64,000 nt of DNA from positions 211,560 through 275,559 of the forward strand of contig JAKVBF010000001.1 of the NCBI GenBank assembly GCA_022447555.1. The letters run 5' to 3'. Below the pieces are notes generated by a model. It worked only from the letters and a program-made list of their open reading frames with translations. It did not search any database and was not told the DNA's origin. Below, in pieces: positions 4,041-58,301 of this stretch (the stretch's first letter is position 1; each line of letters opens with the position of its first letter). The stretch comes from Mariniblastus sp. Lineage in GTDB: Bacteria; Planctomycetota; Planctomycetia; Pirellulales; Pirellulaceae. The position numbers and the translations under genes were made by a program.

Positions 4041-5429
4041 ATGACCACATACAGCCGCCGTTCAAACCGATTCATTGTCTCGCTCATTCTATTCAGTGGC
4101 CTGCTGATAGCGGACTGCGCAGCTCAGTCAGAATCTTCCCTTTCTTGGACGCGTTTTCGAGGCGATCAAGCCGATGGCCTGGGAAGGGATAATCCCGGGC
4201 TTCCTCTGGCTTGGTCCACCGAGCAGAACATTCAATGGGAAACTGACATTCCCGGCTGGGGCTGGTCTTGCCCAATTGTGATCCACGGTCGAGTCTATCT
4301 GACCTCAGTCGTCAGTGATGAAGAGAACACGGCACCTACCAAAGGACTTTATTTGGGTGAGGGAGTACGCGATCCGGCCAAAGGGATTCATCATTGGATG
4401 GTCTATTGTTTTGACTTGGAGACCGGCAAACGGCTTTGGACCCAAGAGGCTCACACGGGTCGCCCTATCATTCCTCGACATCCCAAAAGTTCTTACGCTG
4501 CCGAAACGGCAACCACCGATGGCAAACGTTTGTACGTTCTATTTGGCGACGTCGGTTTGTACTGCTACGATCTCGATGGAAAGCCACTTTGGTCTAAGAC
4601 GATTGAAGCGAAAAAAACTCTCTCGGACTGGGGTGCCGCATCATCTCCTGTCGTTCATCAGGGCCGAGTCTTTGTCGTTTACGACAATCTGGATAGCTCT
4701 TGGATTGCCGCCTTTGACGCGAAAACCGGCAAGGAACTTTGGAAAACGGCTAGAAAAGAATATGGAAGTTGGTCGACTCCGTTTGTTTGGGAGAATCAAC
4801 TGAGAACTGAGATTGTGGTGCCTGGTAAAAACCGCAACCGCAGTTACTCGCTGACGGGAAAACTCTTATGGGAATTCGATGGACAGATGTCAAATCTTGT
4901 CATCCCTTCACCGTTTGCGGCCCATGGCCTTTGCTACATTGCCTCTGGCTACGTGGGAGATGCCAAACGACCCACCATTGCAATCCGGCCCGGCGCCAAA
5001 GGCGATTTGACACCCAAAGAGGGTGAGGAATTATCGAACAACGAATACATCGAATGGGTTCAACCGAGATCCGCACCCTACAACACAACACAACTTGTCT
5101 ACGGAGACTACCTGTACACTTTGTTCGATCAGGGATTTTTCAGCTGCCACGATGCCCGAACGGGCAAAGAAATTTACGGCAAACAACGACTGAAACCTCG
5201 AGGATCATTCACGGCATCTCCTTGGGCCTACAACGGAAAAATCTTTTGCTTGAGCGAAGACGGCCTAACTTACGTGATCAAGCCGGGACCAGATTTCGAA
5301 ATCCTTGCGACCAACGATCTTCAAGAACTTTGTCTTGCAACGCCCTCCATCGTAGGCAACAAATTGTTGATTCGGACAGTCTCCAAGTTGTATTGCCTAT
5401 CCCATCAGGAAACGCCATCAGGAAAATGA
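4041..5429 (+). CDS. Secreted PQQ-binding-like beta-propeller protein
   Basis: Starts at the ATG at 4041, which opens on a basic stretch and a hydrophobic signal sequence ending near DCAAQSE. A start at 3999 would overlap the previous gene. The 462-residue product carries repeats of the PQQ/WD40-like propeller (FDLETGKRLWTQ, YDLDGKPLWSK, FDAKTGKELWKT, HDARTGKEIYGK). Planctomycetes have many such proteins of unknown role. True PQQ dehydrogenase residues were not recognised, so I call only the fold. It lies 13 bases after the propeller/cytochrome gene and is probably co-transcribed with it. Confidence 0.8.
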   Translation: MTTYSRRSNRFIVSLILFSGLLIADCAAQSESSLSWTRFRGDQADGLGRDNPGLPLAWSTEQNIQWETDIPGWGWSCPIVIHGRVYLTSVVSDEENTAPTKGLYLGEGVRDPAKGIHHWMVYCFDLETGKRLWTQEAHTGRPIIPRHPKSSYAAETATTDGKRLYVLFGDVGLYCYDLDGKPLWSKTIEAKKTLSDWGAASSPVVHQGRVFVVYDNLDSSWIAAFDAKTGKELWKTARKEYGSWSTPFVWENQLRTEIVVPGKNRNRSYSLTGKLLWEFDGQMSNLVIPSPFAAHGLCYIASGYVGDAKRPTIAIRPGAKGDLTPKEGEELSNNEYIEWVQPRSAPYNTTQLVYGDYLYTLFDQGFFSCHDARTGKEIYGKQRLKPRGSFTASPWAYNGKIFCLSEDGLTYVIKPGPDFEILATNDLQELCLATPSIVGNKLLIRTVSKLYCLSHQETPSGK

Positions 5430-12212: not shown

Positions 12213-15200
12213 GTGCAGCCCGTGTCAATTCAACGAGAACTCCAGCTTCCTCCCCATCGGGACACGACGCGATACCGTCAAAGTATTCTCCTGAGATTCT
12301 CTCTGCCTGGCTTGCTCCTGTCCTACCTGATCCTGGCTGGCTGTTCCGGAAGCAAGCCAGCCAACCTTTCTGAAACCAATATCGGCGACCCGACGGATGA
12401 CAAATCATCCCCCTCGGTCCTACTACCATCCGACACAAATTTTGATCAGTTGGCCAACGTTGAAGACTTCGAACAAGCCGCCTCCAAGCAGCTGAAAAAA
12501 ATTGCCGAATGGATCGAACAAGGGGACAATGATCCGGCGTCCATTAACGCACTCTCGTCACCTTCTTATCATTCGCCAAAATGGGACATGACTCAATTGG
12601 AGACCGTTCGAGACTCGGGATTCAAGATTCAGAGGATAGGCTCATCGATGGACTTGTTTAACGCGACAGCTGAAAACGATCCTTCTGCATCTCTCGGCGC
12701 TGCTTGGCAACAACTGCTAAGCCCACTGGGTAAACCGGCCGAGAAAAATGCGTTAGGGCGGAGGGTCAAATTCAAAATCTCACGAGTCCTTTCTGAAACC
12801 GACAAGGTTGAGACCGAAGTGATTGTCTCGGTCTTTGCACGGCACGAAAATGGAACAAGCCGTGAAATCAACAGCACACTGAATATCCAATGGGTCCGCA
12901 ATGGCCAGAAAACACTACCGCAGATCGAATCCATCATCATCAAGGATTACGAAACCGCTCAGTTTAACGGGACCTCCGGCGTCACATTCATCGATCGCAC
13001 CGGTGATTTTATTCAGCGTGATAAAGATTTGCTGAATCAATTTTCCCATGGCACTGAATATTGGACATCTCGTTTGATGCAAGGCGACTACTCCGGACAC
13101 TTTGGATTAGCGGTGGGTGATATTAACGGGGACCAACTAGACGATATTTACGTTTGCCAGCCAGCTGGTTTGCCCAATCGATTATTGGTGCAACAACCTA
13201 ATGGCCAGGTAAAAGATCTGTCGAAGAAATCCGGACTGGATATCCTCGATCAAACGCGCAGCGCCTTATTTGCAGATCTCGATAATGACGGTGATCAAGA
13301 TTTATTGGTAGCCGCCGCGTCCTTTTTGTTGGTTTACGAAAACCAAGGCGGAACAGAACTCAAACTACGAGACAAGTTGTTCGAAGCCCGTAGCGCCTAT
13401 TCTCTGTCGGCTGCCGACTTTGATCAGGATGGAGACCTTGATATCTACGCCTGCGGCTACAACCCGTTATTTGGGGCGGGCCAGTTTCCATTTGCCTACC
13501 CATTTCATGATGCTAACAACGGTGGACGAAACGTACTTTATCAAAATGACGGCCAAGGGAATTTTCAAGACGTTACTGACTCAGTCGGCCTTAACGAGAA
13601 CAACACTCGGTTTTCCATGGCTGCCGCATGGGAAGACTTTGATGTCGATGGTGATTTAGATTTATACGTCGCAAATGACTTCGGCCGTAACACGCTTTAC
13701 GAAAACCAGGGCGGACAATTCCAGAACGTCGCCGGCCCGCGAAAGGTCGAAGACCAATCTTTCGGAATGTCGGTCGACTGGGCAGATGTGAATCATGACG
13801 GCCTTCCCGATTTGTATGTATCCAATATGTTTTCCTCCGCCGGCAACCGCGTGAGCTTTCAAAGCGGCTTTATGAGTCGCCAACCCAAACTCCAGTCTCG
13901 AGTTCAATACATGGCACGAGGCAATTCACTCTTCCTCGGTGCCACCGACTCATTTATCGACGCCAGTATGGACTCTAATGCCTGGATGGGGCGTTGGGCC
14001 TGGAGCTCCAAGCTGGTTGATCTCGACAACGATTCTTGGGATGACGTCGTCGTCGCCAATGGATATTTAACCCGTAAATTACCTGATGACTTATGAACGG
14101 TTTTTTGGCGGCAAGTTTTGCCGCGAACCACCGATGATCAAGAAGATGAATCAGCTGTCGAGGCCATGCGAAAATCTCATAGCCAATTCACAACTCAAAT
14201 GCGGCAAGGTAATTCGTTCAGCGGGAAAGAACGAAATTGCGCTTTTCTCAATTTGGGCAATTCCCAATTCGCCAATGTCTCGAGCGTCTCCGGTCTTGAT
14301 TTCATCGATGACGCTCGTGGACTAGCGACCACTGACTGGGATCGCGATGGAGATGTGGATCTTCTGTTCGCAAACCGCACAGCCCCTCGCCTTCGGTACA
14401 TGCAAAACGAGTATTCGGGCAACCACCAATTTGTTTCCTTTGGGCTAGAAGGCCGTGAATCCAACCGGGATGGAATCGGTGCCCGAGTCACCGTCACACA
14501 AGGAGATGGAAATCCGATCTCGAAAACGTTACGAGCGGGTTCTGGTTTCCTTAGTCAGTCCAGCAAACGGCTGACCTTTGGCTTAGGCGCCGCGAGTGAC
14601 AACCAGCTCTCCCTGCAGATCAACTGGCCGTCAGGTCAATCACAGACATTCAATGGTATCAAACCCAATCAACACTATCAGGTGATCGAAGGTAATTCAG
14701 ACATTAAGGTTTTAGAACCTCGCGAGACAAAGCCCCGTCTAGCCAGAGGCTCTATTCCGAATGCAGGAAACCCCGGCACGGTAGCGGCCCTCTGCTATCC
14801 GCGAATGAAACTACCCATCACCACCGTCCGTTTCAATGACCAAGCCCCTCAGCAACTTAAATTCACATCCTCGCTCACGCTCATTAATCTTTGGGCGAGC
14901 TGGTGCGGACCCTGCCTGAGTGAACTGAAGGAATTTTCCGTTCAATATGACGAGCTTAAAAATAACGGCCTGGAAATCATCGCGCTCAGCACTGACGGTG
15001 CTGACGGCAAACAAACCACCGCGGCTGACGCAGCCAGCGCTGCAGCCAAACTGAAACTTCCTTTTCGTTGGGGTAGTATCGATCGAAGTTGGCTCGAGAA
15101 AATGACCTTGCTCCGAGGAGAACTCTTTGGGCTACAACAGCCATTTCCCATGCCCACCAGCATCCTCGTTGACCAAAAGGGTGAGATGCGGGCGTTTTAC

Positions 15201-16379
15201 CTCGGCGTGGTCAGCCTCGATCAGTTGCGTCGGGATATTCAACGCCTCGATCAGAGCGATATCGAGATCCGGAAGCAGCTAACACCTTTACCGGGTCAGT
15301 GGATCGCAGTCCCTCGAACGATCGACAATCTTAAATTTGCTGGGGTTTTTTCTGACAATGGTTATCCGGACGACGCGAACCAATACGACCAATTAGCAGG
15401 AGGCCAGAAAGCACGGCAGTTTTACAACGCAGCACTCACGTCGATGGCCAACAATCGTTTCCAGGATGCTCAGTCCCAATTAATCGAAGCAATCAAGCTT
15501 GACGAATCCTTTGCTCCGGCCCACCTAGTCCTGGCAAACCTAATGGTCAAATTAGCAAGCACCTCGCAGGCTGCCAGCTCAACCCGCGCACTCGAATTCG
15601 CCAAACGTGAATACCAAAAAACGCTTGAACTGGACGATGACAACTTTGACGCATTGGTTGGCTTGGGAAATGTGGCTGCACGGCAAGGGAAAGTCGCAAA
15701 CGCCATGGAGTCGTTTGAAGCCTCGTTGCAAATCAATCCAGACTCTTGGCAAGTCCGGGTTCTCTTAGGCCGGCTCTACATCAGTCAAAAAAAGATCTCC
15801 GAAGCCATGGAACAACTCACCCTTGCCTTACAATCTCAACCCACTAATGGAGACTTGGCCGCTGAATACGGTGCGCTGATGATGCAGATGGGCCAGTATG
15901 AAAAAGCGATTACCGCATTGCGGATCGCTGACGATACTAAACCAAACGACCCAAAAATCTCTCGCCTGTTTGCGGACAGCTTGCTCGCCACGGGGGAGAC
16001 GAAAACAGCTCGCATCAAATACGCGTCCGCGCTTGCCAACAACCCTCGGGACTTGGATTCCCGCATCCGACTGGCCTGGATTATGGCAACCGCAGAAGAT
16101 GAAAATTTGCGCGATTCCAAACAGGCTGTTCAATTGGTTCAGCAGGCGATTTCAGCCGGTTCCAGTGACGCTGCGGCACGACAAACGTTCGCTGCTGCGT
16201 TAGCTTCAGAGGGACAATTTCAACAGGCAATTCAGCAACAATCAGCTGCCATGCAAATGCTGCCTCGTCGTTCAACACAATTCAATAGTGCAACCCGACG
16301 ACTGGAGCTTTATCAAGCTGGAAAACCATACCGACAAAAAGATGCGGATGCCATCCCATTCCTTCCGGTTCCTGAATAA
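12213..16379 (+). CDS. FG-GAP/ASPIC-UnbV, thioredoxin-like and TPR lipoprotein with in-frame TGA (candidate selenoprotein)
   Basis: Read with standard stops this is two frames, 12213-14096 and 14118-16379. They are in the same phase, and the 21 bases between them are open (T-V-F-W-R-Q-V), so one TGA at codon 628 is the only interruption of a 1,388-residue protein. Order of parts: GTG start, lipoprotein signal with LILAGCSG; FG-GAP/VCBS repeats to about residue 710 (DFDQDGDLDIY, DVDGDLDLYVANDFG, DWDRDGDVDLLFAN), running on both sides of the TGA; ASPIC/UnbV domain about 760-830 (GIGARVTV, INWPSGQSQ); TlpA-like thioredoxin fold with W-C898-G-P-C901; TPR repeats about 1070-1370. The TGA falls inside a repeat domain, so the halves cannot be separate proteins. 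A hairpin behind it suggests selenocysteine insertion. Alternatives are a nonsense mutation or a sequencing error. The role of the family in planctomycetes is unknown; it should be outside the cytoplasm. Confidence 0.8.
14094..14129 (+). promoter_or_regulatory. In-frame TGA plus candidate bacterial SECIS hairpin
   Basis: TGA at 14094-14096 is followed by GCGGCAA (14108-14114), loop GTT (14115-14117) and TTGCCGC (14118-14124), a perfect 7-bp stem. A lower stem GGTT (14099-14102)/AACC (14126-14129) closes it across an internal loop. The apical loop begins with G and lies 18 nt after the TGA. As I recall the bacterial SECIS model, it asks for a G in the first two loop bases, a 3-14 nt loop, a 4-16 bp stem and 16-37 nt spacing, so all four are met. 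No T tract follows, so it is not an intrinsic terminator. Genome-level selenium genes are not in the window. Confidence 0.6.
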
Positions 16380-40542: not shown

Positions 40543-41217
40543 TTAAGATTTAACAACTGCCCAAGTCCAGTGCCGATCGGTCGTCGCCTGCACGGTCTCC
40601 GCTGGGAAGCCATTTTGAACAACCAGCTCGCGAATTTCATCTATCGATAACGCCGCGCGCAACGAGTCGTCAAACATCTGCTGCGAGTGCGCGTTCTCTT
40701 GGCCGGCATAGGTTTCAACCAACTTGGCAACCTCTTCTTCCGAGTCCGGGCGAAGTAAATCCCGGATGAACAATAGACCTCCGCGGCAGGTCACGCGAAC
40801 CATTTCGCTGACACAGTCGGCCGGGTCCGGGATGTGATGGATAATACTGTTGGACATCACGGTCGAGAACATTGCGTCGGAAAAAGACATCTGCTTGGCA
40901 TCGACCTGAGCCAGCTGCACCCGTTCAATTAGCCCCGCCGCCTCAATGTTGTAGCGGGCAAGATCCAGCATATGAATGGCCATGTCGATCGCCATGACAC
41001 GGCAATTCGCGTCTCGCTGACAAAGCTCAACAGGAATCAGAGCCGTTCCAGTGCCTAGATCTAAAACATCTTCCAACGATTTCCCATGAGCTTTGGCAAA
41101 TGCAAGCATGTCTTGAACAAACACTTGATTCACTTTTGAGTGATCCATCGCATTGTAGTCTTCTGCTTCCTCTGATGAGTCCATCACCTCGGGTTCAAGC
41201 TCTCGTTTCAGACTCAT
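40543..41217 (-). CDS. Class I SAM-dependent methyltransferase
   Basis: 224 residues with motif I V-L-D-L-G-T-G-T-A-L, an acidic end of strand 2 (V-M-A-I-D-M-A), motif II-like V-D-A-K-Q-M-S-F and S-N-S-I-I-H-H-I-P-D. This is the UbiE/Methyltransf_11 type, acting on a small molecule. Its ATG follows the stop codon of the permease gene with no bases between, and PII starts 13 bases after its end, so all three are translationally coupled. Substrate unknown. Confidence 0.85.
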   Translation of the reverse strand: MSLKRELEPEVMDSSEEAEDYNAMDHSKVNQVFVQDMLAFAKAHGKSLEDVLDLGTGTALIPVELCQRDANCRVMAIDMAIHMLDLARYNIEAAGLIERVQLAQVDAKQMSFSDAMFSTVMSNSIIHHIPDPADCVSEMVRVTCRGGLLFIRDLLRPDSEEEVAKLVETYAGQENAHSQQMFDDSLRAALSIDEIRELVVQNGFPAETVQATTDRHWTWAVVKS

Positions 41218-43005
41218 TCATTGCTCCAAGTTTTCAAATTCTTCGTCGGTCACAATGGGTTGATTTGTCTTGGCTAAGGTCACGCCGAGCGCAAACAACA
41301 ATAGCGCCATCACCAAATAAGCAACTGCGAATTGCAACACGACACGTTGGGCCGCCTCACTAAAGGGACCACCCTCAACCCACAAGTTCCAAGGCAGGAA
41401 CATTTTATCGCCGTCCAAAGGTGAATGCATCACGCCAAACAGAACCAGAAAGCCTCCGATCGCCATATAGATCGAAGCATGGATGAAACGGCGATCAATA
41501 ATTTTGGCCATCGTCGAAGCCCAAATTAGGCTGGTCAATATAAATCCACCAGCCAAAACATTCATGTGTAAGATCAATCCCTGTAGTGCGTCGCGCGGGC
41601 CCACCGGAACGACATCCCAGTCGATCCAAGCAACAAACTGACCCACATAAATCATCACCAATTTAGCCAGCGCCGGCATGCAGGCAATCGCGATGGCCGC
41701 ATAATGTCTGCGAGGCGTTGCGTGAAAGCTCTGAGCAGTGATCTCTATACCAATGAATATCAGAATGGGCAAAACAGCCGCTTCCGGGATAAACTTGAAC
41801 AACAGTCCAAAATAACCAATCACACCCGCGCCGCCAACAAACAATGCGGTTGCCAAAGTATAGGCTGCGCGTCCTCCCATCGCTTTATATGCCGGGTGTC
41901 CAATGTAAGGGGTCGTTTGAATCACACCACCACAAAGGCTTGCAATGAGGGTTGCGAAGGCTTCAATGCTAATGACATTACTGGTTTCAAAATCATCACC
42001 AACAGACGCTGCGCTCTCAGCACAGTCAATACCGCCAATGACGGTCGCAATCGCAAATGGAATGACATAAGGAAGGTACTGAACCGTCTCCTCCATGGAA
42101 CTGAACCACGAGAAATTGAACACGGTCAGCCATTCTGTTGGAAACCAAACTGGCTGAGAATCCTCGTTCGCCAAATCCGGCGCCAGATGGGTCCCCGCAA
42201 AATGGTCCGTACCCACCATCAAGTACCACAGAATGCAACCCATCGCGACTGCTCCCAAAGCACCGGGTATCCGAAACGGCAATTTACCTCGCGCAATCAA
42301 AGTCACCAGCACAACGATCAGCGATGCAAAACCGACAATCGGGTTCACCGCTATTTTCGGTAGTTGAGTGAACGCGATCAAAACCAACGCGATCGCCGCT
42401 AGAGAACCCAACAAGCCCGCTCTGGGAAATACGGCTCGAACCCAGTTAGAGCCAAACGACATCAGTAGTTTGATCAAACCGGTAATGAAAATGGCGCAAA
42501 TCCCGATGTGCCAAGCATCCATTGCTGCCGCTTGGACGGCTCCTGCTTCGGCCATCCCCCCTTCGATTAATTTAGCCTTAGCCGTTACGAAGGCCGGTCC
42601 AATCACAAACAGCACCATGCCGATCGTACTGGGAGTATCCAGCCCAAGGGGCATCGCAGTCACGTTCGTCTTGCCCGTCTGCTTGGCATATCGAAATGCT
42701 AACCAGAAAAAGAGCAAGTCTCCGGCCAACACCCCAATGGCTGTCCCGGGCACCATGTAACGCAGGGAAAAATCTACAGGGAACTGAAAGATGCTAGCTA
42801 ACATGCCAACAGTTAAAACCAGCCCGGCAATATTGTCTAACATTAGGCCAAAAAAGGCATTTACGTCCCCTGGAGCCGCCCAGATGTATTGATTTTTTTT
42901 CACACTTTGACTCTTCGGCATAAGGTTTGCAACTGTGTTCGTTAGCGAGTTTAAAACGTTCGCGAACCAAAAAAAAGGCCTGTCAAAGTGGACCGGATGA
43001 GTCAT
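41218..43005 (-). CDS. NCS2-like (xanthine/uracil) permease
   Basis: ATG 43005 is set by a strong GGAGGG four bases upstream (43010-43015); a longer frame from 43056 is not needed. The 595-residue product has about 12-14 membrane helices with the NCS2/AzgA-type order: a first D-N-I-A-G-L helix, V-T-A-M-P-L-G-L-D-T-P-S, then G-G-I-D-C-A-E-S-A-A and G-G-V-I-Q-T-T-P-Y-I-G-H-P-A-Y. Substrate may be a nucleobase or another anion. It leads the methyltransferase/PII operon and is divergent from the sigma factor gene. Confidence 0.85.
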   Translation of the reverse strand: MTHPVHFDRPFFWFANVLNSLTNTVANLMPKSQSVKKNQYIWAAPGDVNAFFGLMLDNIAGLVLTVGMLASIFQFPVDFSLRYMVPGTAIGVLAGDLLFFWLAFRYAKQTGKTNVTAMPLGLDTPSTIGMVLFVIGPAFVTAKAKLIEGGMAEAGAVQAAAMDAWHIGICAIFITGLIKLLMSFGSNWVRAVFPRAGLLGSLAAIALVLIAFTQLPKIAVNPIVGFASLIVVLVTLIARGKLPFRIPGALGAVAMGCILWYLMVGTDHFAGTHLAPDLANEDSQPVWFPTEWLTVFNFSWFSSMEETVQYLPYVIPFAIATVIGGIDCAESAASVGDDFETSNVISIEAFATLIASLCGGVIQTTPYIGHPAYKAMGGRAAYTLATALFVGGAGVIGYFGLLFKFIPEAAVLPILIFIGIEITAQSFHATPRRHYAAIAIACMPALAKLVMIYVGQFVAWIDWDVVPVGPRDALQGLILHMNVLAGGFILTSLIWASTMAKIIDRRFIHASIYMAIGGFLVLFGVMHSPLDGDKMFLPWNLWVEGGPFSEAAQRVVLQFAVAYLVMALLLFALGVTLAKTNQPIVTDEEFENLEQ

Positions 43006-43231
43006 GGAACCCTCCGATAGGTCTGACAGGGACGGGGTAAGCAGTGCTTGTGGCACTGAAAGTTACACGAATGTGGCATTTCGCCCCAAAAATAGGGAAA
43101 TTGCTACGACACAACAGTGGAAACCGCTCAACGTTTTCCGATTTTAAGGAGTCGTATCGAAGAGAAATGTTTGGTTGAAAAGGCATTTTGCCAAATCCGC
43201 GAACTTCCTCCGCTAAGATACGTATAGAACC

Positions 43232-55667: not shown

Positions 55668-57503
55668 TTGCAAACGCCGAGCATCGTGAAACCACCTTTT
55701 CCATTCTTCGTATCCTCGTTATTGGCAGCCGGCATGTTCCTGCTGCTAAGCACCCGTCTACAGGGGCAGTCTCCCGGTGAAGATCAGTGGAGACAGCATG
55801 CTGCATTACAACAGCAACTCGTACAGACAATCAACGAACAAGGATTGACCTCTAAGGCCTCCGATTGGATCATCCCCCGCGATCCGCAACGACTCTATGT
55901 CTTCACGCCTCAGGAACAGGTCCACCGTCCCGATGACCCTCAGCTAGCCTCCCTACTAGAAGATCACGCGGAAAAGCTATTTGCCCTAGCGAAAAAAAGA
56001 ATTGCGGAGAACCAAGCTGCCGCCTGCTTCCAACTCTTGCATGAAGTTCTGTTTTACAATCCGAATCATGAGCCAGTCCGCAAAATCTTGGGGCATCGAA
56101 GAGAAGAAGACGGTTGGCATGTCTCTTCTGATCGATTGCGGTTTACGGTTGGCACGCGAACGCAATCGCTAATGAACTGGCCAGCAAAATCCTATTCGAT
56201 TTGCAAAACCCCTCATTTTGAGATCGTATCCCAGGCCGATGAGGCACAAACGCGTTTGCTGGCTGGAAAGTTGGAGTTGTGGCATCAAATTTGGAGACAG
56301 GTTTTCTTTGAGTATTGGTCTCGCTCCTCAACCTTGCAACGCTGGCTGGATGGCAAAGGTCAAGCGCGTGTGCCGACTAAAAAATTCAAGGTTGTTTTCT
56401 TCAAAGACCGGGACGCTTATGTCAACCAATTATCTCAATGGATTCCGGGAATCGAAGGATCCACCGGCTACTACGAGGCTGCACAGAAAACCTCATTTTT
56501 TTATGCTGCCAATAAAACTCAGGAAGCGGTCGCGGCGGAGCAAGCCACCTGGCGGCACGAACTAACGCACCAGCTGTTTCACGAATCGAGACGGTCCGTC
56601 GAGTCACCGTTCCAAGATCGTTATTTGTGGCTGGGCGAGGGAATTGCGATGTATTTTGAATCTCTGACGGAATTCCCCCGTCACGTCACTCTCGGAGGTT
56701 TTGACTCCCGTCGAATGCAATATGCTCGGCTAAGATGCCTGAAAGAACAATTCTACATCCCTGTGGCAACACTTACGTCGCTGGATAAAAAAAGCCTCCA
56801 GACCCATCCAGAGATCAAAAAAATATACAGTCAGTCTGCCGGGCTCACTCATTTCCTGATGGGCTCAGATTTTGGCACTCTGCGACCTAAGCTAAGTGAG
56901 TTCTTGCAACTCAGTTATCAGGGAAAATTGAAAGACAATTCCTTCAATGAAATTCTTGAGATGACGACGTCGGATATCGATACGGCCTATCCCGACTTCC
57001 TGCGAGTCACCAGCCCCCAAGTCGAATCTGGGATCGTCTCACCCGAAACACGTACGGAATTTGCTCTTCCCCGGACGGCGGTTTCAGCGACCGCCTTGCT
57101 TGAGATCGGCAAATGTCCCAACCTGAGTTGGCTGGACTTATCCGCTTCGGATGTGCGTGGTAAAAAGTTGTCGGGCCTGCGCGGCTGTCGAACATTGCGC
57201 CAGCTGTTTCTAACCGGCTGTTTAGTAGACGGCCAGAGTCTTCAACACCTCAGAGACGTCGGCCAGCTGACGGACCTCGATCTGAGTGCTTCCAGCGTAA
57301 ACGATATCGACGTTGCCTCGCTAAAATCACTGCCATCACTGGCAAATCTAAACCTCTCTGGGACAAACATTTCCGATGCGGCAATTCCAGCGTTGCTGAA
57401 GCTGCCAAGTCTAAGCGGCATCAATTTATCGGGGACACAATTAACCCAATCCGGCGTCTACCGTTTGCAAATGGCGAATCCGAGTCTGAGCATTACCTTT
57501 TGA
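55668..57503 (+). CDS. Secreted metalloprotease-like protein with leucine-rich repeats
   Basis: A signal peptide (FPFFVSSLLAAGMFLLLS, cleavage near LQGQS) follows a TTG at 55668 or a GTG at 55686. The middle resembles the DUF1570-type gluzincin fold, with a full zinc motif W-R-H-E-L-T-H-Q and a third ligand in L-G-E-G-I-A-M-Y-F-E. The last 130 residues hold four or five leucine-rich repeats (LTDLDLSASSVNDIDVASL). Zinc site and LRR in one secreted protein suggests a target-binding protease, but no substrate is known. It ends nine bases before the creatininase gene. Confidence 0.7.
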   Translation: MQTPSIVKPPFPFFVSSLLAAGMFLLLSTRLQGQSPGEDQWRQHAALQQQLVQTINEQGLTSKASDWIIPRDPQRLYVFTPQEQVHRPDDPQLASLLEDHAEKLFALAKKRIAENQAAACFQLLHEVLFYNPNHEPVRKILGHRREEDGWHVSSDRLRFTVGTRTQSLMNWPAKSYSICKTPHFEIVSQADEAQTRLLAGKLELWHQIWRQVFFEYWSRSSTLQRWLDGKGQARVPTKKFKVVFFKDRDAYVNQLSQWIPGIEGSTGYYEAAQKTSFFYAANKTQEAVAAEQATWRHELTHQLFHESRRSVESPFQDRYLWLGEGIAMYFESLTEFPRHVTLGGFDSRRMQYARLRCLKEQFYIPVATLTSLDKKSLQTHPEIKKIYSQSAGLTHFLMGSDFGTLRPKLSEFLQLSYQGKLKDNSFNEILEMTTSDIDTAYPDFLRVTSPQVESGIVSPETRTEFALPRTAVSATALLEIGKCPNLSWLDLSASDVRGKKLSGLRGCRTLRQLFLTGCLVDGQSLQHLRDVGQLTDLDLSASSVNDIDVASLKSLPSLANLNLSGTNISDAAIPALLKLPSLSGINLSGTQLTQSGVYRLQMANPSLSITF

Positions 57504-57512
57504 AAGTCTGGC

Positions 57513-58301
57513 ATGAGCAAAATTCGACCCTGGGTTTTGGCAGAAACTAATTATGGCCACGTCAAACAACAAAACTATCAAGTTGCTGTCATTCCGCTCG
57601 GAGCCACCGAACCCCACAACCTACACCTACCATATGGCACGGACATTTTCGAAGCCGACACCGTCAGCCAACGTATCTGCGAGTATGCGTTCACCCGCGG
57701 AGGCGCCGTCGTGACGCTGCCCGCCATTCCATTTGGAACCGAAACAAATCTTAGCGAATTCCCACTCGCCATTAACCTGAACCCGTCAACATTAAATGCT
57801 GTTCTCGAAGACATTGTGAATTCGCTGACCGCAAGCGGTATCCAAAAAATTGTTCTTCTTAATAGTCATGGCGGTAATGGGCTAAAGCCTTTCCTCCGCG
57901 AAATGGCTGGCAAGACCTCCGCGCATCTGTTTTTGTGCAATTGGTATCAGGCCATTCAGGATATTTATTTTGACATCTTTGAACACGCCGAGGATCATGC
58001 AGGTGAAATGGAAACGTCGTTTGCACTGGCATACTTTCCAAATCTTGTTGCCAAAAATCCGGACGGCAGTTTAGCGGGGGATCTGGGTCAGACACGACCC
58101 ATGCGATTCGAGGCACTGAACGAAGGATGGGTTTCCATCACCCGCCCTTGGCACTTGCTAACCACGAACTCGGGTGCCGCCAATCCCCACGAAGCGACAG
58201 CTGACAAAGGTCACCAAATGATGAAAATCCTAGAGCAGCGCTTGGGAAATTTTCTTCTGCAACTCTCCGACTCAAAAATCGACAAATCCTTTCCTTTCTA
58301 A
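57513..58301 (+). CDS. Creatininase-family amidohydrolase
   Basis: 262 residues with the metal-binding pattern of the creatininase family: I-P-L-G-A-T-E-P-H-N-L-H-L-P-Y-G-T-D, N-S-H-G-G-N and D-H-A-G-E-M-E-T-S. Members hydrolyse creatinine, or a formamide in cofactor synthesis (MftE), so the substrate here is open. The TGA of the preceding gene and this start lie in the same phase, nine bases apart. Confidence 0.85.
   Translation: MSKIRPWVLAETNYGHVKQQNYQVAVIPLGATEPHNLHLPYGTDIFEADTVSQRICEYAFTRGGAVVTLPAIPFGTETNLSEFPLAINLNPSTLNAVLEDIVNSLTASGIQKIVLLNSHGGNGLKPFLREMAGKTSAHLFLCNWYQAIQDIYFDIFEHAEDHAGEMETSFALAYFPNLVAKNPDGSLAGDLGQTRPMRFEALNEGWVSITRPWHLLTTNSGAANPHEATADKGHQMMKILEQRLGNFLLQLSDSKIDKSFPF

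Follow-up and report, generated by a model that had tools for sequence, protein, structure and literature searches.

A thioredoxin-like fold or a metal cofactor is found in most catalogued selenoproteins, and we know of no redox chemistry for the β-propeller fold of CRTAC1-like proteins. A review from 2026 tabulates 119 families or subfamilies of prokaryotic selenoproteins, mostly with thioredoxin-like folds, and its Table 1, compared by name and motif, holds no FG-GAP, ASPIC or propeller entry (PMC13188914). Here, we describe a gene in a 64,000-nucleotide stretch of a Mariniblastus sp. genome (Planctomycetota; Pirellulales; Pirellulaceae; assembly GCA_022447555.1, contig JAKVBF010000001.1, positions 211,560 to 275,559 of the forward strand; hereafter the window) in which an in-frame TGA is very probably read as selenocysteine (Sec) within such a propeller protein. 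A preliminary description made from the letters of the window had proposed this reading, giving U628, and had supposed that the family is not a standard selenoprotein; of the checks it listed, all those run, on the Sec machinery of the genome, the codon column in homologues and the covariation of the hairpin, favour the first idea, and the absence of the family from the 119-family table is in line with the second.

A single TGA at 14094-14096 (codon 628) interrupts a plus-strand frame that is otherwise open from a GTG at 12213, the first start in the frame and taken as the putative one, to a TAA at 16377-16379. As originally described, the two sides share one phase, with 627 open residues upstream and 760 codons downstream; if the TGA encodes Sec, the product would be a 1,388-residue lipoprotein in which Pfam places FG-GAP on the 5' side of the TGA and UnbV_ASPIC, AhpC-TSA/thioredoxin and TPR domains on the 3' side. 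By gathering scores, the protein has the FG-GAP_3 (117.4 bits, cut-off 26.9) then UnbV_ASPIC (68.8 bits, cut-off 23.4) order of CRTAC1-like proteins, and its AhpC-TSA match (40.7 bits, cut-off 26) and fold matches set a WCxxC motif in a thioredoxin fold, with the WCGPC site reported earlier found at residues 897-901. A thioredoxin-like domain is thus present, yet the protein does not qualify as ResA or TlpA, scoring 41.9 bits against an NCBIfam cut-off of 170 for ResA and 39.6 against 230 for TlpA. Of the FG-GAP repeats described as running across the TGA, Pfam gives a clear match before it and a weak second FG-GAP_3 match after it, at 22.4 bits against the same cut-off of 26.9. From general knowledge, we take LILAGC, ending at Cys44, to be a lipobox.

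TGA is a common stop in the window, ending 15 of the 37 non-overlapping open reading frames (ORFs) of at least 200 residues, the gene under study included; the ORFs cited in the preliminary description as evidence that the code is not simply reassigned, ending at 5429 and 53543, do stop at TGA. Among 38 TGA-ended ORFs of at least 100 residues (six frames, nested ORFs counted), three run on for at least 200 open codons, the gene under study for 760 and the other two for 224 and 265; the latter look like ordinary tandem genes. In-frame neighbour pairs split by a TGA, at 40543-43056 (minus strand) and 55668-58301 (plus strand), serve as negative controls, and in both the second half has an ATG right after the stop and a methyltransferase or creatininase domain by Pfam.

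The four parts of the Sec machinery singled out in the preliminary description are all present in the genome, a draft of 4.19 Mb in 62 contigs that is 97.5% complete: SelA (569 bits), SelB (357.9 bits) and SelD (273.2 bits), all above curated cut-offs, and a tRNA-Sec (68.6 bits) with a TCA anticodon. Each search gave one match above cut-off, followed by weaker rows that are presumably other tRNAs, translation factors and enzymes. The SelD match (G000:C3:79091-79999, L020) lies within a 733-residue open frame and, because this exceeds twice the 311-position model, SelD may be fused to another domain in this genome.

To place the TGA among relatives, we collected 204 distinct homologues (above 60 bits, repeats of one window removed; a non-random set that also underlies the stem, Cys and WCxxC counts below). 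The column holds TGA in 175, TGC in 10, Glu in 5, Asn in 4, Ala in 3, Gln in 2, Gly in 2, and Asp, Phe and a gap in 1 each; because rows without TGA were sought out, though not every such match was fetched, these counts are not frequencies. The ten Cys rows belong to a sister clade with DYC or DHC at the site. Homologues with Trp, Arg or Gly and no hairpin, named at the outset as the pattern that would speak against Sec, did not emerge: no row of the 204 has a Trp or Arg codon at the column, and the two Gly rows are a distant group with a shifted alignment (4 of the 19 rows with another residue are distant and poorly aligned there). The motif DL-U-SxxWRQVV, conserved on both sides of the TGA, is shared by this set and by a 39-row alignment of chosen rows, each with Cys or Sec at the column.

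Most of the family belongs to Planctomycetota and Verrucomicrobiota, where a genome often has more than one copy. Searched with the sequence flanking the TGA, 42 of 146 genomes of the order gave matches. A single genome has as many as eleven, and G022 has ten with TGA; every listed match at E <1e-40 contains exactly one TGA. The Mariniblastus genome itself has five matches, all five with TGA; the four further genes (C7:57482, C34:138498, C34:237994 and C12:28644) share the motif, and two of them belong to the second subfamily described below, with the stem in another register. In another genome, five TGA-bearing copies lie within about 54 kb of one contig, all on the minus strand (G080:C105:33425-86867). 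A scan of 84,980 species genomes yielded 79 loci from the best 80 of 178 relatives, of which 78 carry TGA at the column and one Asn (L177); none of the 79 has Cys, though one of the two patterns was written to require Cys at that codon. These loci come from Verrucomicrobiota (45), Planctomycetota (29), Acidobacteriota (2), Pseudomonadota (1) and unassigned genomes (2), and the rarer phyla need care because most loci are from metagenome-assembled genomes. Counted with and without TGA, the wider family has matches in 193 of 392 genomes of the phylum.

The TGA form also tracks SelB. In the order, SelB exceeds its cut-off in 21 of 23 TGA genomes versus 24 of 123 others (Fisher P 5e-11); in the phylum, SelB at E <= 1e-60 is found in 64 of 71 genomes with a listed TGA form and in 236 of 392 overall, 235 of these 236 being over the curated cut-off (hypergeometric P 1e-9, kinship ignored). 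Both lists of TGA genomes (23 and at least 71) were read by eye from the matches, and unlisted genomes of the phylum may also have the TGA form.

The second line of evidence is the hairpin reported 18 nt after the TGA, which we found as described: GCGGCAA-GTT-TTGCCGC, a 7-bp stem with a G-first loop. The stem starts after 11 nt and the loop after 18 nt from the TGA, and positions 14094-14135 fold with a minimum free energy (MFE) of -16.9 kcal/mol (z -3.14 versus dinucleotide shuffles). These values fit the bacterial selenocysteine insertion sequence (bSECIS) model given in the accessible part of the review, which has a loop of 3-9 nt, a stem of 4-16 bp, a G in the first two loop positions, a spacing of 16-37 nt and an MFE of at most -7.5 (PMC13188914). 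Numbered by bases after the TGA, the stem consists of pairs 12-28, 13-27, 14-26, 15-25, 16-24 and 17-23, with G19 and U20 in the loop; the window's own stem has the additional pair 18-22.

All six pairs form in 142 of 161 sequences of the window's subfamily, versus 5.95 expected when synonymous codons are sampled at each sequence's own usage for the same peptide. The stem is incomplete in all 29 non-TGA homologues, with six pairs in 0 of 19 rows with another residue and 0 of 10 Cys rows, even where the peptide is near-identical, and in the second and third Sec subfamilies six pairs form with the stem in a shifted register (5 of 5 and 5 of 6 rows). The pairs also covary, a check that the preliminary description had called for: for 149 of 156 distinct stem sequences, 97.9% of cells are paired and both-side changes occur in 35 cells versus 5.3 in shuffles, a number reached by 0 of 500, and sliding the stem register lowers the paired cells to at most 69%. 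Pair 15-25 occurs as A-U, G-U, G-C, C-G and U-G, and pair 17-23 changes from A-U to G-C, usually along with amino-acid changes such as Gln...Val to Arg...Ala.

The Sec rows form three groups: DLU-SxxWRQVV, to which the window's protein belongs (161 rows and 3 close variants), DLU-SxxWRxVVR (5 rows) and PDGU-xCxW (6 rows), the last with an extra Cys two residues past the Sec. The separate Cys clade (10 rows) reads DYC/DHC-T/S-x-x-W, and 5 of its 10 rows have a second Cys five residues on. In a tree of 88 rows, including 48 random rows of the window's subfamily and without the window's own row, the Cys group and the second and third Sec groups are each one strongly supported clade. Of the 19 rows with another residue, 12 are nested within the window's Sec clade in this tree, and three Asn and four distant rows fall outside; because of this nesting, Sec was probably lost more than once within the clade. 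In a second, faster tree, the window's gene falls within the Sec clade and groups with a paralogue and with sequences from Mariniblastus (Pirellulaceae). We read the Glu, Asp, Gln, Asn and Ala paralogues (and one distant Phe), with their incomplete hairpins, as losses of Sec, and these losses seem to concern single genes and not the machinery, since 9 of 10 genomes with fetched Glu, Asp, Ala or Gln rows have SelB (G410 showed none).

At the level of the protein, an AlphaFold2 model of residues 248-1018, built with 41 relatives (predicted local distance difference test 88.6, predicted template modelling score 0.91), puts the Sec position at model residue 381, the second residue of helix 380-391, between propeller strands. 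A Sec or Cys in such a position, where a helix begins, is often reactive. Of the 161 subfamily members, 138 have a counterpart of Cys676 (ERNC), versus 2 of the 19 homologues that have neither Sec nor Cys at the column. Among sequences with at least 300 residues downstream, 119 of 154 members carry WCxxC, versus 0 of 16 homologues with neither Sec nor Cys; a separate 42-row alignment consists of rows picked for having WCxxC. The pattern suggests that Sec628, Cys676 and the thioredoxin domain could form a relay outside the cytoplasm.

In the mechanism we propose, the genome's own SelA, SelB, SelD and tRNA-Sec would decode codon 628 as Sec, directed by the downstream bSECIS hairpin. The product would be a lipoprotein, exported to judge from its N-terminus, with Sec placed at a helix start between the strands of a CRTAC1-like propeller in the motif D-L-U-S-x-x-W-R-Q-V-V. 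Sec628 would react with a substrate and then be reduced by the fused TlpA/ResA-like thioredoxin domain through its WCGPC site, perhaps by way of a Sec628-Cys676 selenenylsulfide, and the TPR tail would bind partners. We lean towards Sec628 as a redox centre; that Cys676 is its partner is a tentative suggestion.

Several observations weigh against this proposal. On the RNA side, five of the six pairs still form in 4 of the 29 non-TGA homologues. When folding energies of the 48 nt after the TGA are compared with synonymous shuffles, the window's own sequence gives z -1.93 (p 0.055), and 73 sequences give a mean z of -0.35, with 15 of 73 below -1. RNAalifold on 149 sequences kept the inner four of the six pairs (-3.99 kcal/mol); of these two tests and the fixed-register stem test, only the last is strong. 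The invariance of loop bases G19-U20 is not independent evidence, because they belong to a conserved Val codon. On the genome side, SelB is missing at threshold from 2 of the 23 TGA genomes of the order (65% and 70% complete) and from 7 of the 71 listed for the phylum (55-90% complete). On the protein side, 35 of 154 subfamily members with enough sequence have no WCxxC, and the joint loss of Sec and thioredoxin can be counted in just 3 independent pairs (sign test p 0.5). Cys676 is mostly lacking from the other two Sec subfamilies, where 0 of 5 rows (second) and 1 of 6 (third) have it. Within the Sec clade, several paralogues carry Glu, Asp, Gln, Asn or Ala in place of Sec, not Cys, which would be unusual for a residue that is simply a better thiol.

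A different reading is a Sec that is real without being a redox centre served by thioredoxin, acting instead as a metal or substrate ligand or as a selenium-dependent switch between short and long forms. Replacement by Glu, Asp, Asn or Gln suits a ligand role, and WCxxC is absent from the 35 members noted above and from all 6 rows of the third subfamily, only 2 of which have 300 residues downstream. Against this explanation stand the thioredoxin motif, confined to Sec members in the comparison of 119 of 154 with 0 of 16, and the distribution of Cys676, 138 of 161 against 2 of 19; we regard a ligand or switch as a substantial possibility.

Read-through without selenium, in which Trp, Arg, Gln or another ordinary amino acid is inserted or the stop tunes the amount of long protein, would likewise account for paralogues with Glu, Gln, Asn, Asp or Ala in place of Cys. 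It is very unlikely, given that the TGA form co-occurs with SelB, that the hairpin fits the bSECIS model and is incomplete in every non-TGA homologue examined, and that a sister clade has Cys at the column. Two in-frame genes, one for a 627-residue propeller protein and another with its own start near TTG 14118, would have precedent in the adjacent in-frame genes elsewhere in the window, but here both flanks of the TGA are conserved as the one motif DL-U-SxxWRQVV, the frame runs on through the column in homologues that have Cys, Glu, Gln or Ala there, and the junction falls within a helix of a single propeller in the AlphaFold2 model, making this arrangement highly improbable. A draft genome of 62 contigs can contain errors, but we give almost no credence to a sequencing error or a decaying pseudogene when 175 distinct homologues, drawn from several phyla, share the TGA at this column, the hairpin covaries and both halves retain their domains.

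Around the TGA loci of the best 80 of 178 relatives, we found no constant gene neighbour among clustered flanking ORFs. The commonest are FG-GAP-like (19 loci), LamG-type (11) and a large protein of unclear kind (8), followed by sulfatase-like (7) and DUF1501-like (6) ORFs, names that are guesses from sequence with no search behind them. The features of the locus and the relevant loci of its relatives are collected below.

Table. Features of the candidate selenoprotein gene (positions in the window) and loci of relatives without Sec.
Feature	Position or loci	Strand	Basis
Complete coding sequence through the TGA	12213..16379	+	One open frame apart from the TGA; Pfam domains
N-terminal signal region, ending in lipobox-like LILAGC, Cys44	12213..12344	+	Sequence
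FG-GAP beta-propeller, approximate limits (from model)	13107..14408	+	FG-GAP_3 E 4e-34; AlphaFold2; CRTAC1 fold match
TGA codon 628, proposed selenocysteine	14094..14096	+	Homologue column 175/204 TGA, 10 Cys
bSECIS stem-loop, GCGGCAA / GTT / TTGCCGC	14108..14124	+	Stem, covariation and folding tests
Cys676 (ERNC motif), candidate partner of Sec628	14238..14240	+	Cys conservation in subfamily
UnbV_ASPIC domain	14472..14678	+	Pfam PF07593, residues 754-822
TlpA/ResA-like thioredoxin domain	14865..15194	+	Pfam AhpC-TSA, residues 885-994; TlpA and ResA structures by profile
WCGPC thioredoxin active site, residues 897-901	14901..14915	+	Sequence
TPR repeats, approximate limits	15573..16235	+	Pfam and NCBIfam matches
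Cys-clade loci	L098, L099, L100, L102, L051, L216, L224, L226, L227, L230
Sec-clade paralogues with Glu, Asp, Ala or Gln, not Cys	L212-L215, L217-L223

Apparently, this is a large and widespread selenoprotein family that had not been catalogued before. In the open-access literature searched, we found no report of Sec in CRTAC1-like proteins and none of an FG-GAP or ASPIC selenoprotein, although an earlier listing in supplementary tables or subscription journals is possible. The accessible parts of the deep-Sep paper (PMC12013277), a tRNA-Sec survey (PMC5330540) and a 2005 survey (PMC1242214) do not name the family, nor does the accessible text of the Porphyra planctomycete paper, which reports candidate selenoproteins in two planctomycetes and tabulates them in its supplement (PMC4807772). 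For four proteins from the three Sec groups, no model of NCBIfam release 20 is over its cut-off among the matches listed; for the window's protein this holds for the best 25 of 28 matches, where the Sec-named WAxxUGC_long model, matching the thioredoxin domain, scores 24.9 bits against 300.

Put together, the picture we find plausible, if a little short of probable, is of a selenoprotein family among the largest in bacteria, missed so far because gene finders halve every member: an exported propeller selenoenzyme with a thioredoxin reductant on the same chain, reaching ten copies in a planctomycete genome and widely distributed in Verrucomicrobiota, whose main clade replaces Sec not with Cys but with Glu, Asp, Asn, Gln or Ala when the activity is abandoned. 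If this is true, it raises the selenoprotein count in both phyla, could help explain why many of these genomes retain the Sec machinery, and implies that many FG-GAP proteins annotated at about 630 residues may be cut short. For bacterial CRTAC1-like proteins, it also points to a specific site at which chemistry could be sought.

Compared with known systems, the protein is closest to CRTAC1, which has the same kind of β-propeller and is both the top profile match and the top structural match (9etn, Z 41.7, root-mean-square deviation 2.3 over 453 residues); relative to CRTAC1 and other FG-GAP-UnbV_ASPIC proteins, the window's protein adds the Sec-bearing helical stretch, the thioredoxin domain and the TPRs. 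The neighbours by structure include an enzyme, aldos-2-ulose dehydratase, which matches the propeller-ASPIC part (Z about 23.5) with 12-13% identity in the alignment. Profile and Foldseek comparisons both link the C-terminal thioredoxin domain to TlpA (1jfu) and ResA (1st9), but unlike these exported thioredoxins it is part of a 1,388-residue lipoprotein, with the Sec about 270 residues away and outside the CxxC. Sec likewise accompanies thioredoxin-type domains in the UGC-containing TlpA, Prx-like and DsbG-like selenoproteins of the review's Table 1, whose Sec motif (UGC or UxxC) lies in the thioredoxin-type site itself, whereas here the proposed Sec lies in the propeller (PMC13188914, accessible part). 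The decoding mechanism is the standard bacterial one; the surprise is the fold and the size of the family.

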